This document shows positions 53,797 to 60,968 of a stretch of DNA of 64,000 nt, in pieces. Where the stretch lies: the NCBI RefSeq assembly GCF_000240165.1, contig NC_017586.1, positions 5,903,228-5,967,227 on the forward strand. Direction: 5' to 3'. Source of the stretch: Streptantibioticus cattleyicolor NRRL 8057 = DSM 46488 (GTDB lineage: Bacteria > Actinomycetota > Actinomycetes > Streptomycetales > Streptomycetaceae). Below the pieces are notes generated by a model. It was not told where the DNA came from. It made no database searches and worked only from the letters and a program-made list of their open reading frames with translations. Every line of letters begins with the position of its first letter. Position 1 is the stretch's first letter. The position numbers were made by a program, and so were the translations under genes.

Positions 53797-53802
53797 TATC
53801 GT
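53797..53802 (+). promoter_or_regulatory. -10 element of a leaderless promoter
   Basis: TATCGT lies 7 bases before GTG 53810, the chosen start of the histidine kinase; there is no ribosome-binding site. Confidence 0.4.
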
Positions 53803-53809
53803 GAGGGAC

Positions 53810-55072
53810 GTGGAGCACAGCGACGGCGTCCGGCGGGACGTGCCGGGGTGGCTGCTGCCCGGTGAGTTCACCGCCGGCGGCGACCCGACGCGGATCCGCC
53901 GGACCCCGCGGGACTGGGCGGTCGACACCGCGACCTGCGGCGGCGCCTTCCTGCTGGGGCTGGTGGTCTGCGGCGTCGCCCAGCGATACGACCCCCGCCC
54001 CTCGCAGTGGCTGCTCGCGGCCGATCTGCTGCTGGGCACCCTCGCGTGTGCGTCGCTGTGGTGGCGCCGCCGGTTCCCGCTGGCCGTGGCGTTGCTGGCG
54101 CTGCCCGCGCTGGCCGTCTCCACCAGCGCGTTCGGCGCGGGCATCGTGATCACCGTGAACACGGCGCTGCGGCTGCCGTGGCGGCGTTCGCTCCCGGTGC
54201 TCGCCGCGTTCCTGACGGCGGGCCTGCTGGGGGTGGCCCTTCTCCAGGGCGCGAACACGGACGGGCTGGTCGGCGCCGCCGTCACGCTGGTGTACTTCCT
54301 GGTCTCCTTCGCGTGGGGCAGCACCCTGCGGGCCCGTCGGCTGTGGACGCTGGCGGTGCGGCGCGAGGCCGAGCGGGAACGCGCCGAGCACGCCCGGCGA
54401 CTGGCCGACACCCGCCGCGCCGAGCGCGAAGCCATCGCCCGCGAGATGCACGACGTGCTCGCCCACCGCATCTCCTTGCTGTCGGTGCACGCCGGCGCGC
54501 TGGCGTACCGGGCCAAGCGGTCCGCCGCCGGCACCGGACCGGGCCTCGACGGCACCGAGATCTCCCGCAGCGCGCAGATCATCCGCGACAACGCCCACCA
54601 AGCCCTCGGCGAGCTGCGCGACGTACTGCTGGTGCTGCGCGCGGACGGCGCCGACGGCGCGGCAACGCCCCCGCAGCCGACCCTCGCCGACCTTCCGGGC
54701 CTGGTCGAGGAGGCCAGGGCGGCCGGACAGGACGTGGACCTCCACGACGAACTCGCCGGCCCGGCGCGGCCCCCGCGCCCGCAACTCCAGCGCACGGCCT
54801 ACCGCGTCGTCCAGGAGGGCCTGACCAACGCGCGCAAGCACGCCCCCGGCGCCCGGGTGACCGTACGGCTGACCGGCGAGCCCGGCTCCCACCTGACGAT
54901 CGAGGTCGGCAACCGCCTGCCCGCCGAGGCGTCCGCACCAGGCGTCCCCGGCGCCGGAGCCGGGCTGACCGGCCTGGCCGAACGGGTCCGGCTCGACGGC
55001 GGCGCACTGGAACACGGCAGTGACGACGGCGTCTTCATCCTGCGGGCCCGGCTACCCTGGCGGGCGGGGTGA
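53810..55072 (+). CDS. Sensor histidine kinase (HisKA_3 / NarL-partner type)
   Basis: A 420-residue membrane kinase. Four or five hydrophobic helices (GGAFLLGLVVCGVAQRYDPR, LAVALLALPALAVSTSAFGA, LPVLAAFLTAGLLGVALLQG, LVGAAVTLVYFLVSFAWGS) form the sensor. REAIAREMHDVLAHRISLLS holds the phosphorylated histidine near residue 215. The HATPase_c domain ends with VVQEGLTNARKHAPGARVTV (N box) and GAGLTGLAERVRLDGGALEH (G boxes). There is no large extracellular domain, so it may sense membrane stress. GTG 53810 is preferred over GTG 53801 because TATCGT lies 7 bases upstream. Its stop overlaps the response regulator start. Confidence 0.9.
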   Translation: MEHSDGVRRDVPGWLLPGEFTAGGDPTRIRRTPRDWAVDTATCGGAFLLGLVVCGVAQRYDPRPSQWLLAADLLLGTLACASLWWRRRFPLAVALLALPALAVSTSAFGAGIVITVNTALRLPWRRSLPVLAAFLTAGLLGVALLQGANTDGLVGAAVTLVYFLVSFAWGSTLRARRLWTLAVRREAERERAEHARRLADTRRAEREAIAREMHDVLAHRISLLSVHAGALAYRAKRSAAGTGPGLDGTEISRSAQIIRDNAHQALGELRDVLLVLRADGADGAATPPQPTLADLPGLVEEARAAGQDVDLHDELAGPARPPRPQLQRTAYRVVQEGLTNARKHAPGARVTVRLTGEPGSHLTIEVGNRLPAEASAPGVPGAGAGLTGLAERVRLDGGALEHGSDDGVFILRARLPWRAG

Positions 55073-55725
55073 CGACGATGATCCGGGTGCTGCTGGTCGA
55101 CGACGACCCGCTGGTGCGGGCCGGGCTGACGATGATGCTGCGCGGCGCGGCCGACATCGAGGTGGTCGGCGAGGTGGCGGACGGCGCGGGCGTGGCCGGG
55201 GCGGTCCGGCGGCACACCCCGGACGTCGTGCTGATGGACATCCGGATGCCGGTCATGGACGGGATCGCCGCCACCCGCACCGTGGCCGGCGGCGACCGCA
55301 CGCCCAAGGTGATCGTGCTGACCACCTTCGACACCGGCGGCACGGTGCTGGCGGCGATGCGCGCCGGAGCCGCGGGCTACCTGCTCAAACACACCGAGCC
55401 CGACGAGATCGTGGACGCGGTCCGCCGGGCCGCCCGCGACGAGCCGGTGCTCTCCCCGGCAGCCGCCCGTACCCTGATCGACCACGCCGCGGCGGGCACC
55501 GGCACCCGCACCGAGCGGGCACGACGCAAGCTCGCCGGGCTCTCCGACCGGGAACGCCAGATCGCCCGGGCGGTGGCCGACGGGCTGTCCAACTCCGAGA
55601 TCGGCGACCGGCTCCACCTGTCCACCGGCACCGTCAAGGCCCACCTGTCGAGCGCGCTGACCAAACTCGACCTGGACAACCGCGTCCAGCTGGCCCTGCT
55701 CGCCCACGACGCGGAAGCCGAGTGA
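55069..55725 (+). CDS. NarL/LuxR-family response regulator
   Basis: A 218-residue two-domain regulator. The receiver domain has RVLLVDDDPLVRAGLTMMLR (acidic pocket), VVLMDIRMPVMDGIAATRTV (phosphorylated Asp near 57), and AAGYLLKHTEPDEIVDAVRR (conserved Lys). The C-terminal LuxR helix-turn-helix is LSDRERQIARAVADGLSNSE then GTVKAHLSSALTKLDLDNRV. GTG 55069 overlaps the kinase stop (GTGA). ATG 55078 three codons later is the alternative. It is the cognate partner of the kinase and may control the membrane protein gene that follows. Confidence 0.93.
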   Translation: MTTMIRVLLVDDDPLVRAGLTMMLRGAADIEVVGEVADGAGVAGAVRRHTPDVVLMDIRMPVMDGIAATRTVAGGDRTPKVIVLTTFDTGGTVLAAMRAGAAGYLLKHTEPDEIVDAVRRAARDEPVLSPAAARTLIDHAAAGTGTRTERARRKLAGLSDRERQIARAVADGLSNSEIGDRLHLSTGTVKAHLSSALTKLDLDNRVQLALLAHDAEAE

Positions 55726-57442: not shown

Positions 57443-57458
57443 GAGTGCATCTTACGCT
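57430..57458 (+). promoter_or_regulatory. Promoter with TetR operator in the spacer
   Basis: Forward promoter: TTGCAA (57430-57435), 17 bases, TACGCT (57453-57458). The spacer contains AAGATGCA-TGAG-TGCATCTT (57434-57453), an 8-base perfect inverted repeat. On the reverse strand TAAGAT (57454-57449) is the -10 of the divergent tetR. One operator thus covers both promoters and the tetR start codon. Confidence 0.8.
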
Positions 57459-57555
57459 CGTCATCGAGCCCACGGCACGCGGCTGGCGCACACCTCGCAT
57501 GCCGTGGCATCCCGCTGATTCCAGCACACCTCGCCATCTCCTGAAGGGGAACGCC

Positions 57556-58263
57556 ATGCACACCCATACCGACCAGCGGTCACCGCACCCCGTGACGGTC
57601 GACGTCCACACGATGGGCCGCACCTTCGAGGAGTCCGCGGTGGACCGGTGGGAACTCGAGGCCGCGCGGCGAGCCCTCAAGAACCTCAAGGCGGTGGCCG
57701 GCGGTCAGGTGATGATGGACCTCCTCGCCGACCAGATCGAGGCCGGCGACCGCTTCCACGCCGGCCTCGTCGAGGCGTCCGGCGGCACCTACCGCGAGTC
57801 GCGCACCGAGTTCACGGTACGCGGACTCAGCGGCACCGACCTGGCCCGCTGGTTCCGGTCGCAGGCCGCCACCGGACGCTTCCAGGACAAGACGGCGCTC
57901 CTCAACGCCCACCCCGAGCACTACGTCGAGCCGCCGGAGTACACCGGCGGCATGGTGGAGACGATCGGCAATCACCTCACCCGGTTCAAGGTGTCGGTCG
58001 CCCGCGAACTGCCCCCGCCGGTCAGCGCCCACCTCGACGCCTCGTACCCGATCTCGCTGATGAACGCCCTGCTCAGCCTGGACGACGGCACCCCCTTCGC
58101 CTACTGCCTGCACCAGGCGCGGGACACCGCCACCGGCGCGGACGTCGTGGTACGCGTCGTCTACCCGTCCGCCGCCCCGGACTCGATGATCGAGGGGCAC
58201 TGCGAACACCTGGCGATCGAATTCCGCAGCTGGATCCGGAACGCGGCAGCCGCGACCCGGTGA
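57556..58263 (+). CDS. Hypothetical protein, probable TetR target
   Basis: A 235-residue soluble protein with no recognised family. The N-terminal part (HPVTVDVHTMGRTFEESAVD, RWELEAARRALKNLKAVAGG) is helical. A mixed alpha/beta region follows with EFTVRGLSGTDLARWFRSQA, HLTRFKVSVARELPPPVSAH and a strand-rich end (DVVVRVVYPSAAPDSMIEGH, HLAIEFRSWIRNAA). There is no signal peptide. The segment from 80 on, with paired strands and a final helix, could be a ligand-binding fold. GAAGGGGAACGCC before ATG 57556 fixes the start. A 5' leader of about 90 bases separates it from the operator-controlled promoter. Confidence 0.72.
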   Translation: MHTHTDQRSPHPVTVDVHTMGRTFEESAVDRWELEAARRALKNLKAVAGGQVMMDLLADQIEAGDRFHAGLVEASGGTYRESRTEFTVRGLSGTDLARWFRSQAATGRFQDKTALLNAHPEHYVEPPEYTGGMVETIGNHLTRFKVSVARELPPPVSAHLDASYPISLMNALLSLDDGTPFAYCLHQARDTATGADVVVRVVYPSAAPDSMIEGHCEHLAIEFRSWIRNAAAATR

Positions 58264-58291: not shown

Positions 58292-59923
58292 TCACAGTCG
58301 TACCTCGAACCACACGACCTTGCCGCCGGCGGTGCGGCTCGCGCCCCACTCGTCGGAGAGCCGGCTGACCAGGCCCAGACCGCGCCCGTCCTCGTCGGTG
58401 GCGCTCGCCGGGCGCAGGGTGGGCATGTTGTGGTCGTCGTCGCTGACTTCGACGAGCAGTTTGTTGTCGGTGCGCATCAGGCGTAGTTGGACGTCGTGCC
58501 GGGCCACCCGCAGGGCGTTGGTGACCAGTTCGCTGACGAGGAGTTCGGCGAGTTCGACGAGGTTGTGCAGGCCCCAGGCGGCGAGGCGTTCCACGGTGGC
58601 GGCGCGGGCGACGCGGGCTTGGGAGGGGTGACGGGGCAGTTGCCATTCGGCCACGTCGTCGGGTGCGATGCCGTCGAGCCGGGCGACGAGCAGGGCGACG
58701 TCGTCGTCGCAGTAGTCGGGTTGCAGGCGGGTCATGATCTGTTCGCACACCTCCTGGGGGCTGTCGGCGGGCCCGTCGGTGATGCCGGCGCACAGCGCCT
58801 CCAGGCCCTCGTCGATGGGGCGGCTGCGGCTCTCCACCAGTCCGTCGGTGCACATCACCAGCCAGCTGCCGTCGTCTATCGGGACCCGCATCTCCTCGAA
58901 GGCCACACCGCCGACGCCGATCGGCGCGCCGGTGGGTATCTCCAGCAGCCGGGGCTTGCCGTCCGCGTCGACGAGGACCGGCGGGACGTGACCGGCGTTG
59001 GCGAGGGTCAGGGTGCGCCGCACCGGGTCGTAGACGCTGTAGATGCAGGTGGCGAGGTGCTCGGTGCTCAGGTGGTGGGTGAGGTTGTCCAGTTGGCGCA
59101 GGAGTTGGGCGGGCGGCAGGTCCATCGAGGCCATGGTGATGATGGAGGTGCGGAACTGGCCCATCACCGCGGCGCTCATCAGGCCGTGCCCCATGACGTC
59201 GCCGACGACCAGGGCTACCCGGCCGCTCGGCAGCCGGATGGCGTCGAACCAGTCGCCGCCCGCCGCGTTGCCGTGCCCGGGGTGGTAGTCGTAGGCGATC
59301 CGCACCCCGGGGATCCGGGGCGGACGGATGGGGAGCAGGCTGCGTTGCAGGTTGACCGCGGTCACCGACTCCAGGCGGCTGAGGCGGGCGTTGTCCAGCG
59401 TCGCGCTGACCTCGGCCCCGGCCAGGCGTAGTTGGGCCAGCTGCTCCCGGAGGGTCTCGGCGGTGGCGGTGGCCTCGTTGGTGATGGCGGCCAGCCGTTC
59501 CTCGGCGTCCGACCAGGTGGGCTCCAGCAGGTCCTCGGCCTCGTCGTCGTGCATGCCGAGCCCGAGTTCCACGGCTGCCTGCTCGCCGGCGGACCCCAGA
59601 CGGCTGATGCCCGGCTGCTGGCGGCGCCGTTCCTCGGCCAGCCGGTTCCACGCGGTCTCCCAGCGCGGGTCGTCGGCGGGCTCCACCCCGCACACCTGGA
59701 GGAAGGCGAAGAGCCGGGCCTTGGTGGGGAAGGTGCGTCCCGCCAGCATGTCCGCGACCGCCGAACGCGACAGCGACTTGCCGTGCCTGATGGCCCACCG
59801 CTCCATGGTCCGCAGCGACGGCTGATCGGCGCGGGTGCGTAATCGCCTCAGCAGTTCCGCGAAGTCCTCGACGGTGACGGCCGTGGCCGGGTCGATGTCG
59901 GGATGCAAGGGCACAGCGTCCAT
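58292..59923 (-). CDS. HTH-PP2C phosphatase-HATPase fusion regulator
   Basis: A 543-residue signalling protein. Residues ~15-85 form an Xre-like helix-turn-helix (FAELLRRLRTRADQPSLRTM, SRSAVADMLAGRTFPTKARL). A coiled linker follows (~120-195). A SpoIIE/RsbU-type PP2C phosphatase covers ~205-400 (GHGNAAGGDWFDAIRLPSGR, VALVVGDVMGHGLMSAAVMG, GSWLVMCTDGLVESR). A C-terminal HATPase of the RsbW type covers ~410-543 (LAELLVSELVTNALRVARHD, DEDGRGLGLVSRLSDEWG). PP2C acts on anti-anti-sigma factors and HATPase on sigma or anti-anti-sigma proteins, so this one chain could both phosphorylate and dephosphorylate. The added HTH is unusual. ATG 59923 follows GCGAGGAGCTG. Confidence 0.88.
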   Translation of the reverse strand: MDAVPLHPDIDPATAVTVEDFAELLRRLRTRADQPSLRTMERWAIRHGKSLSRSAVADMLAGRTFPTKARLFAFLQVCGVEPADDPRWETAWNRLAEERRRQQPGISRLGSAGEQAAVELGLGMHDDEAEDLLEPTWSDAEERLAAITNEATATAETLREQLAQLRLAGAEVSATLDNARLSRLESVTAVNLQRSLLPIRPPRIPGVRIAYDYHPGHGNAAGGDWFDAIRLPSGRVALVVGDVMGHGLMSAAVMGQFRTSIITMASMDLPPAQLLRQLDNLTHHLSTEHLATCIYSVYDPVRRTLTLANAGHVPPVLVDADGKPRLLEIPTGAPIGVGGVAFEEMRVPIDDGSWLVMCTDGLVESRSRPIDEGLEALCAGITDGPADSPQEVCEQIMTRLQPDYCDDDVALLVARLDGIAPDDVAEWQLPRHPSQARVARAATVERLAAWGLHNLVELAELLVSELVTNALRVARHDVQLRLMRTDNKLLVEVSDDDHNMPTLRPASATDEDGRGLGLVSRLSDEWGASRTAGGKVVWFEVRL

Positions 59924-60160
59924 CAGCTCCTCGCCGGTCCGGGGGACACCGGAAATGTAGAGGACGTCCACCGGCCTCCACCCGGGAACCGGAACGGGCA
60001 CTGTCCGTAGTTGGCCGATGTTGGCAGGAAATGGCCGTGACCGGCCGATGCCGTCCGCAGGTGGCGACTCCGCTGGCGGGACACCACGGGCACGGGCGTC
60101 CATGGCATCCGGCGCACCGGAGCCGGTGCGTTCCCATGGCACCCGAAGGAGAAGACGTAC

Positions 60161-60448
60161 GTGTCGGGACCCCTGGACACCCTGCAGGCGGCAGCCGTCC
60201 TGCTCAACCTCGCCGGCGCGCTCGTCGAGGCGGGCGCCGCGGTGGTGACCGCCGTGGTGAAGCTGCGCGCGTCCCCCTCACCCGCCGGGGAACCACGACG
60301 GGTACGACCGCCCCGGCACGCCACGGCCGTCAGGCGCCGGCGGCCACGGCCCCCAGTTCGTCGAGCGTGTCGAGGACGAGCCGCGGCAGGTCGGGTGCGT
60401 CGTCCCGTTCGCCGGGCGCGGCGAGCCAGCACGCGAAGGCGACCTTGA
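60161..60448 (+). CDS. Possible small membrane-associated protein
   Basis: GTG 60161 follows GAAGGAGAAGACGTAC, a good ribosome-binding site, and opens a 95-residue frame. The first ~38 residues (MSGPLDTLQAAAVLLNLAGA, LVEAGAAVVTAVVKLRASPS) form a plausible single hydrophobic helix. The rest is an arginine-rich run that overlaps the convergent TetR gene by 119 bases and looks non-biological. Either the true protein is short, with its stop lost by mutation, or the frame is spurious. It is divergent from the HTH-PP2C regulator. Confidence 0.35.
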   Translation: MSGPLDTLQAAAVLLNLAGALVEAGAAVVTAVVKLRASPSPAGEPRRVRPPRHATAVRRRRPRPPVRRACRGRAAAGRVRRPVRRARRASTRRRP

Positions 60449-60905
60449 GGGCGGCGATCCCGGCCTCCGCGGCCAGGCTCGCGGTGCGGTCGGGGACGCC
60501 GCGTTCGCGCAGCGCGTCGGCGATGGCGGCGGAGAGGGAGGCGAGCTTGACCAGTTCGCGTTCCTGGAGTTCGGGGTTGGCGGCGATGACCGCCTGACGG
60601 ACCCGGGAGCCCTCGCGGTCGAGGAAGATCGCGGTGGCGGCCTTGAGGCCCTCGGCGACCGCGGCGATGGGCCGGACGGAGTCGGGGGCCTCGGCGACCG
60701 CCCGCACGGTCACCTCGTGCAGATGGCCCGAGCCCGCGAAGAGCACGTCGCGCTTGTCGGCGAAGTGCCGGAAGAACGTGCGCTTGGTCAGCCCGGCCCG
60801 CGCGGTGATCTCCGCCACCGTGGTCCGGTCGAACCCGTGCTCCGCGAAGAGCTCCAAGGCCGCCTGCAACAGCCGGCCACGCGCGTCCGGCTCCCATCGT
60901 CCCAT
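60330..60905 (-). CDS. TetR family repressor
   Basis: A 191-residue TetR protein. GRLLQAALELFAEHGFDRTT then EITARAGLTKRTFFRHFADK (residues 10-51) is the helix-turn-helix, followed by RDVLFAG, a common junction. The ligand domain includes SAAIADALRERGVPDRTASL. TAGAAT lies 6 bases upstream of ATG 60905 on the reverse strand, so translation is probably leaderless. Its -35 overlaps the operator at 60919-60939. It presumably represses itself and the divergent epimerase-like gene. Confidence 0.93.
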   Translation of the reverse strand: MGRWEPDARGRLLQAALELFAEHGFDRTTVAEITARAGLTKRTFFRHFADKRDVLFAGSGHLHEVTVRAVAEAPDSVRPIAAVAEGLKAATAIFLDREGSRVRQAVIAANPELQERELVKLASLSAAIADALRERGVPDRTASLAAEAGIAALKVAFACWLAAPGERDDAPDLPRLVLDTLDELGAVAAGA

Positions 60906-60911
60906 GGCGTC

Positions 60912-60968
60912 ATTCTAGTGATGACACCTGGTGTCGTCAGTGTTAGGGTGATGACACCTGGTGTCATC
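60912..60968. promoter_or_regulatory. Overlapping divergent promoters with two TetR operators
   Basis: Operator 1 (60919-60939, TGATGACACC-T-GGTGTCGTCA, one mismatch) and operator 2 (60950-60968, GATGACACC-T-GGTGTCATC, perfect) have centres 30 bases apart. Reverse promoter for tetR: CTGACG (60940-60935), 17 bases, TAGAAT (60917-60912). Forward promoter: ATGACA (60921-60926), 17 bases, TAGGGT (60944-60949). Operator 1 covers both -35 boxes and operator 2 the forward start site. Confidence 0.85.

Follow-up and report, generated by a model that had tools for sequence, protein, structure and literature searches.

The fusion gene and its surroundings

The window, by which we mean the whole stretch of 64,000 nucleotides that was analysed, comes from a member of the Streptomycetaceae whose genome consists of two contigs (6,282,967 and 1,812,548 bases). 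Near its end lies a gene in which a helix-turn-helix (HTH) domain is fused to a SpoIIE phosphatase and a HATPase domain, and across a divergent gap there is a short open reading frame (ORF). The features of the locus are as follows.

58292-59923, minus strand: HTH-SpoIIE-HATPase fusion gene, 543 amino acids, ATG start at 59923, GAGGAG at 59927-59932
58307-58636, minus strand: RsbW-like HATPase_c_2 domain (residues 430-539), with the N-box and G-box residues kept
58676-59398, minus strand: last part of the ancestral GAF helix (LDNARLxRLES) and SpoIIE/PPM phosphatase (residues 176-416), with the active-site aspartates kept
59399-59614, minus strand: acidic linker followed by a predicted long helix (residues 104-175), from alignment and a low-confidence full-length model
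59615-59875, minus strand: HTH domain of XRE/HTH_31 type (residues 17-103), from PF13560, an AF2 model and structural matches
60113-60130, no strand: candidate operator in the divergent gap, a perfect 8-bp inverted repeat, CGCACCGG-AG-CCGGTGCG
60161-60448, plus strand: tiny divergent GTG ORF of 95 codons, unlikely to be a gene or to belong to the system

In the ORF list the fusion is a single intact frame on the minus strand (58292-60142), with GTG 60142 as its first start codon and a product of 616 residues. The G+C content at the three codon positions is 0.76/0.61/0.72 in the 73 codons upstream of ATG 59923 and 0.74/0.53/0.91 in the HTH part, so that the third-position value (GC3) of the upstream codons, 0.72, stands against about 0.90 for the remainder. 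Two potential starts upstream of ATG 59923 both lack a ribosome-binding site, while GAGGAG precedes ATG 59923 itself. GTG 60142 was ruled out as the start by GC3 and by the missing ribosome-binding site. Because the upstream codons are without the GC3 bias and their starts without a ribosome-binding site, we count the protein as 543 residues long; its true start is almost certainly ATG 59923, and the 73 codons before it are probably non-coding.

The preliminary description had placed an Xre-like domain, an RsbU-like phosphatase and an RsbW-like ATPase on one chain, and PF13560, PF07228 and PF13581 all scored above their Pfam cut-offs. The SpoIIE domain (PF07228) gave 175.5 bits (E 1.6e-51, cut-off 25) and retains the motifs GGDWFD, GDVMGHG, TDG and DDD; HATPase_c_2 (PF13581) gave 43.4 bits (E 4.2e-11, cut-off 27.4) and retains E465, N469, D495, G513 and G515. 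The HTH was not picked up in the Pfam scan of the whole protein, and 78 residues of it taken in isolation matched HTH_31 (PF13560) at 29.1 bits (cut-off 27). The three-domain protein, in which the HTH is followed by a predicted helical linker, the phosphatase and the ATPase, is real.

The short ORF across the gap had been described as hydrophobic, with a good ribosome-binding site, and as a possible target or signal of the fusion. The GTG 60161 ORF does exist and AAGGAG precedes it, but its hydrophobic look is limited to the first 36 codons or so. Equally strong ribosome-binding sites belong to 24 of the 1173 comparable start codons in the window. The last 40 codons (60330-60448) run antisense to a TetR gene and the end is rich in arginine. 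A scan against Pfam and NCBIfam returned no match, with Pfam taken at E up to 1; there was thus no match to DUF397, the family of the small protein that neighbours WhiJ in WhiJ-like clusters. No plasmid matched, and the best match in 150 genomes reached 21 bits, which is within noise. Having no homologues and a tail antisense to TetR, the ORF was rejected as a candidate gene and is probably no gene. With homologues absent and coding evidence poor, its proposed role as target or signal of the fusion is not upheld.

On the other side of the fusion, the convergent ORF at 57445-58263 (plus strand) gave no credible match in Pfam or NCBIfam. Tandem ORFs resembling a histidine kinase and a response regulator of LuxR/NarL type were seen, from translations only, at 53801-55725 (plus strand).

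Origin of the catalytic half

The best matches to the protein in 60 related genomes begin at about residue 243 of the 616-residue form (170 of 543), with 59-67% identity, and belong to frames of about 870-1450 amino acids that carry GAF sequence upstream. Pairwise alignments of the fusion with the paralogue in its own genome and with two other proteins begin exactly at residue 176 (LDNARLxRLES). This joint corresponds to the tail of the GAF region in GAF-SpoIIE-HATPase proteins, with which the fusion shares about 67% identity over the core. Homology to GAF proteins was not detectable in residues 104-175; the N-terminal GAF domain is absent and the HTH stands in its place.

The GAF-SpoIIE-HATPase family is conserved across the Streptomycetaceae, and its member in the host genome (L132, at G000:C2:3236703) has a catalytic half about 67% identical to that of the fusion and falls into the same clade; the members carry GAF and other N-terminal sequence, whereas the fusion has the HTH. 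In a maximum-likelihood tree of 69 cores, the fusion lies within the clade of these proteins (17 rows, SH-aLRT 98), although long branches, among them the end branch of the fusion at 0.59 (the median end branch is 0.06), make the placement less sure. Because core identity and joint agree, we derive the fusion from this family by replacement of the N-terminus. As judged from these alignments, it is a paralogue in which an HTH module has taken the place of the N-terminal sensor part, and this domain swap seems to be rare and specific to its lineage.

A chance fusion that is now drifting, a decaying or functionless paralogue, would also leave a long branch, and 42 of the 224 clade-invariant positions are altered in the fusion, of which no orthologue was found in the genomes sampled. 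Against this, the frame is open with a strong GC3 bias, and 80 of the 82 non-gap positions that are near-invariant in 68 other proteins are kept, including D224, D242, D360 and D408 and the HATPase residues named above, which are the presumed sites of metal and ATP. By the Nei-Gojobori method, dN and dS between the fusion and its own paralogue are 0.24 and 0.63, a ratio of about 0.38; comparisons of that paralogue with its relatives give a dN of 0.06-0.15, a dS of 0.38-0.59 and a ratio of 0.14-0.30. We therefore consider decay very unlikely. By these comparisons the fusion evolves faster yet stays constrained, and its fast branch could reflect relaxed constraint.

The HTH module and the rarity of the fusion

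A profile built from 20 relatives of the HTH retrieved structures of XRE type such as ClgR. The AF2 model of the domain, made from two sequences, has five helices in an XRE-like layout (pLDDT 86.6). Its structural matches were mainly XRE, HigA, EspR and CI domains, and with Z of about 5-5.8 they are only suggestive for such a small helical domain; MPnS, an enzyme, was also among them (Z 5.9). The best matches were thus mostly of XRE type, with Foldseek E above 0.1 and Z below 6. The XRE fold also occurs in an enzyme, as MPnS shows, and is by itself no proof that the domain binds DNA.

The closest relatives of the module, at about 50% identity, head STAND proteins with HTH-NB-ARC-TPR architecture (L033 and L034, the latter matching L111 of Streptomyces sp. 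NRRL F-6131), whose effector is an NB-ARC ATPase with TPRs, unlike the phosphatase and ATPase of the fusion. Further relatives head NB-ARC proteins or predicted membrane proteins whose tails are RICIN-like; others stand alone or in tandem. The module is, on this comparative evidence, a mobile regulatory module of actinomycetes.

Two groups of relatives may be added as observations. The host genome has a second relative of the module on its smaller contig (L032, G000:C1:389250-389516), in a frame of 206 amino acids with a hydrophobic C-terminal segment. Several other proteins (L038, L040, L041, L047 and more), of about 240-290 amino acids, consist of two tandem modules and no other evident domain.

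It has to be considered that the HTH does not bind DNA and serves for contacts with other proteins or for dimerisation, as it possibly does on the STAND and membrane lectin-like proteins. The N-terminal position of its relatives on NB-ARC/TPR proteins and on predicted membrane proteins with RICIN-like tails is consistent with this, as is a motif around (P)RST..D.L that is common to the modules in all these contexts. The HTH nevertheless falls among ordinary XRE/HTH_31 proteins and grades into them, and we regard a purely protein-binding role as unlikely.

The architecture is rare among the genomes sampled, and only one of 69 SpoIIE ORFs examined, the window gene, carries the HTH. A query of the HTH plus linker found no second orthologue of the fusion in 395 genomes of the family and 396 of the phylum (the two sets share a few genomes and together make nearly 790). 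With the whole protein as query against 297 genomes of the class, a search that scored about 4 loci per genome, there was no orthologous fusion among the alignments listed, and only that of the window gene starts before residue 96. The SpoIIE motif was sought at about 50 HTH loci and found at none. Contig scans gave no match with the HTH-linker sequence and one STAND protein only with a three-row HTH alignment; because the back-translated patterns are narrow, these negatives are weak evidence. Fusions that arose independently, from another HTH or around a less closely related core, would escape the rarity searches. A direct description of such fusions was not found in the part of the literature that was searched.

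Possible mode of action

Single chains that combine phosphatase and kinase have a precedent in Rv1364c of Mycobacterium tuberculosis (PAS-PPM-RsbW-STAS; PDB 3ke6, E 7e-28 against the fusion). Like the fusion, it joins a phosphatase and an RsbW-like domain to an N-terminal regulatory domain, but that domain is a PAS sensor and the chain ends in a STAS domain, whereas the fusion has the HTH and no STAS. In OsaC of S. coelicolor and in PPM phosphatases of RsbU/RsbP type, a helical linker joins the N-terminal regulatory domain to the PPM phosphatase, as is predicted for the fusion (PMC12143880). The regulatory domains named in that paper are GAF, PAS, receiver, HAMP and the RsbU N-domain; a helix-turn-helix, which the fusion has, is unmentioned there. 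RsbU is activated when its linker orders into a coiled coil and dimerises the phosphatase domains, and the N-terminal regulatory domains of PPM phosphatases (GAF, PAS, receiver) are argued to be exchangeable, with control passing through dimerising coiled-coil linkers (PMC12143880).

Because the HTH replaces the N-terminal sensor and is followed by what is predicted to be a helical connection to the phosphatase, it most likely acts, by analogy with these proteins, as an input that controls the enzyme, by binding either DNA or a partner. We suggest, with about even confidence for and against, that the fusion is a chimeric protein, peculiar to its lineage, that regulates partner switching: a GAF-SpoIIE-HATPase copy into which an XRE-type HTH was swapped. 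The HTH would bind a partner or a DNA site, and in its bound state might alter dimerisation or the helical linker. This change would switch the activity of the SpoIIE phosphatase and perhaps also that of the RsbW-like kinase; the switched enzyme would act on one or more STAS anti-sigma-factor antagonists of the host, whose state would then set a sigma-B-like factor. The analyses show the domain order, the intact catalytic residues, the descent by exchange of the N-terminus, the constraint and the presence of STAS proteins in the host; we infer the dimerisation, the signalling through the linker, the binding of DNA or a partner, the substrate and the direction of signalling. Dimerisation and linker signalling are proposed by analogy only, because the full-length AF2 model, made without homologues, is poor and unusable (pLDDT 38); residues 134-195 form one long helix in it, at low confidence. 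The host genome has 13 STAS domains as candidate substrates, none of them inside the window.

DNA could instead be the output. The fusion would then be a transcription factor whose binding to DNA is set by the phosphatase and kinase as they read STAS phosphorylation. The HTH_31 domain carries a net positive charge, and the upstream gap contains one perfect palindrome, the candidate operator, which has a single exact copy genome-wide. Because its arms are 8 bp long and the DNA is GC-rich, chance is a fair explanation of the palindrome, and the operator is a mere candidate. Streptomycete XRE genes of WhiJ type often adjoin genes for HATPase anti-sigma-like proteins (PMC10294661, PMC4255298), so that neighbouring genes offer a parallel to the union of these two kinds of function in a single protein. 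In these WhiJ/AbaA-like/BldB-like (DUF397) clusters the paired proteins come from separate genes and a SpoIIE phosphatase is not described (PMC4255298, PMC10294661, PMC6262351), whereas the fusion is one chain. Against DNA as output, the HTH occupies the position of the input sensors in the family, and a SpoIIE protein with DNA output is not described in the literature searched. DNA as output thus seems to us rather unlikely.

Also rather unlikely is a single-chain switch that would couple DNA, or the occupancy of an operator, directly to the partner switching of sigma factors. Its HTH would sense a promoter or sit on it while the tethered phosphatase and kinase set the state of a STAS anti-sigma antagonist, or the reverse; if true, a promoter and a sigma-factor circuit would feed back on each other inside one protein. 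If the HTH binds DNA at all, the chain would unite DNA recognition of the one-component type with the partner switching of sigma factors. The fusion appears to be a natural swap of a sensor for an HTH at a precise joint, and because the unswapped paralogue is present in the same genome, the proposal of exchangeable domains (PMC12143880) becomes directly testable.

The region between the divergent frames, 59924-60160, includes CGCACCGGAGCCGGTGCG, and a sigma-70 promoter scan of the gap found none. By eye, and without statistics, a direct repeat with 10-bp spacing, GCCAAC-N4-GCCAAC, can be seen upstream of the fusion (60008-60030, minus strand). Beyond the gap, the palindrome TGACACC-T-GGTGTCA occurs twice at 60920-60968, between the TetR gene (60330-60905, minus strand) and an NAD-epimerase-like gene (from about 61027, plus strand); the first copy differs at one position. 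The two copies are likely to be operators of the adjoining TetR regulator.
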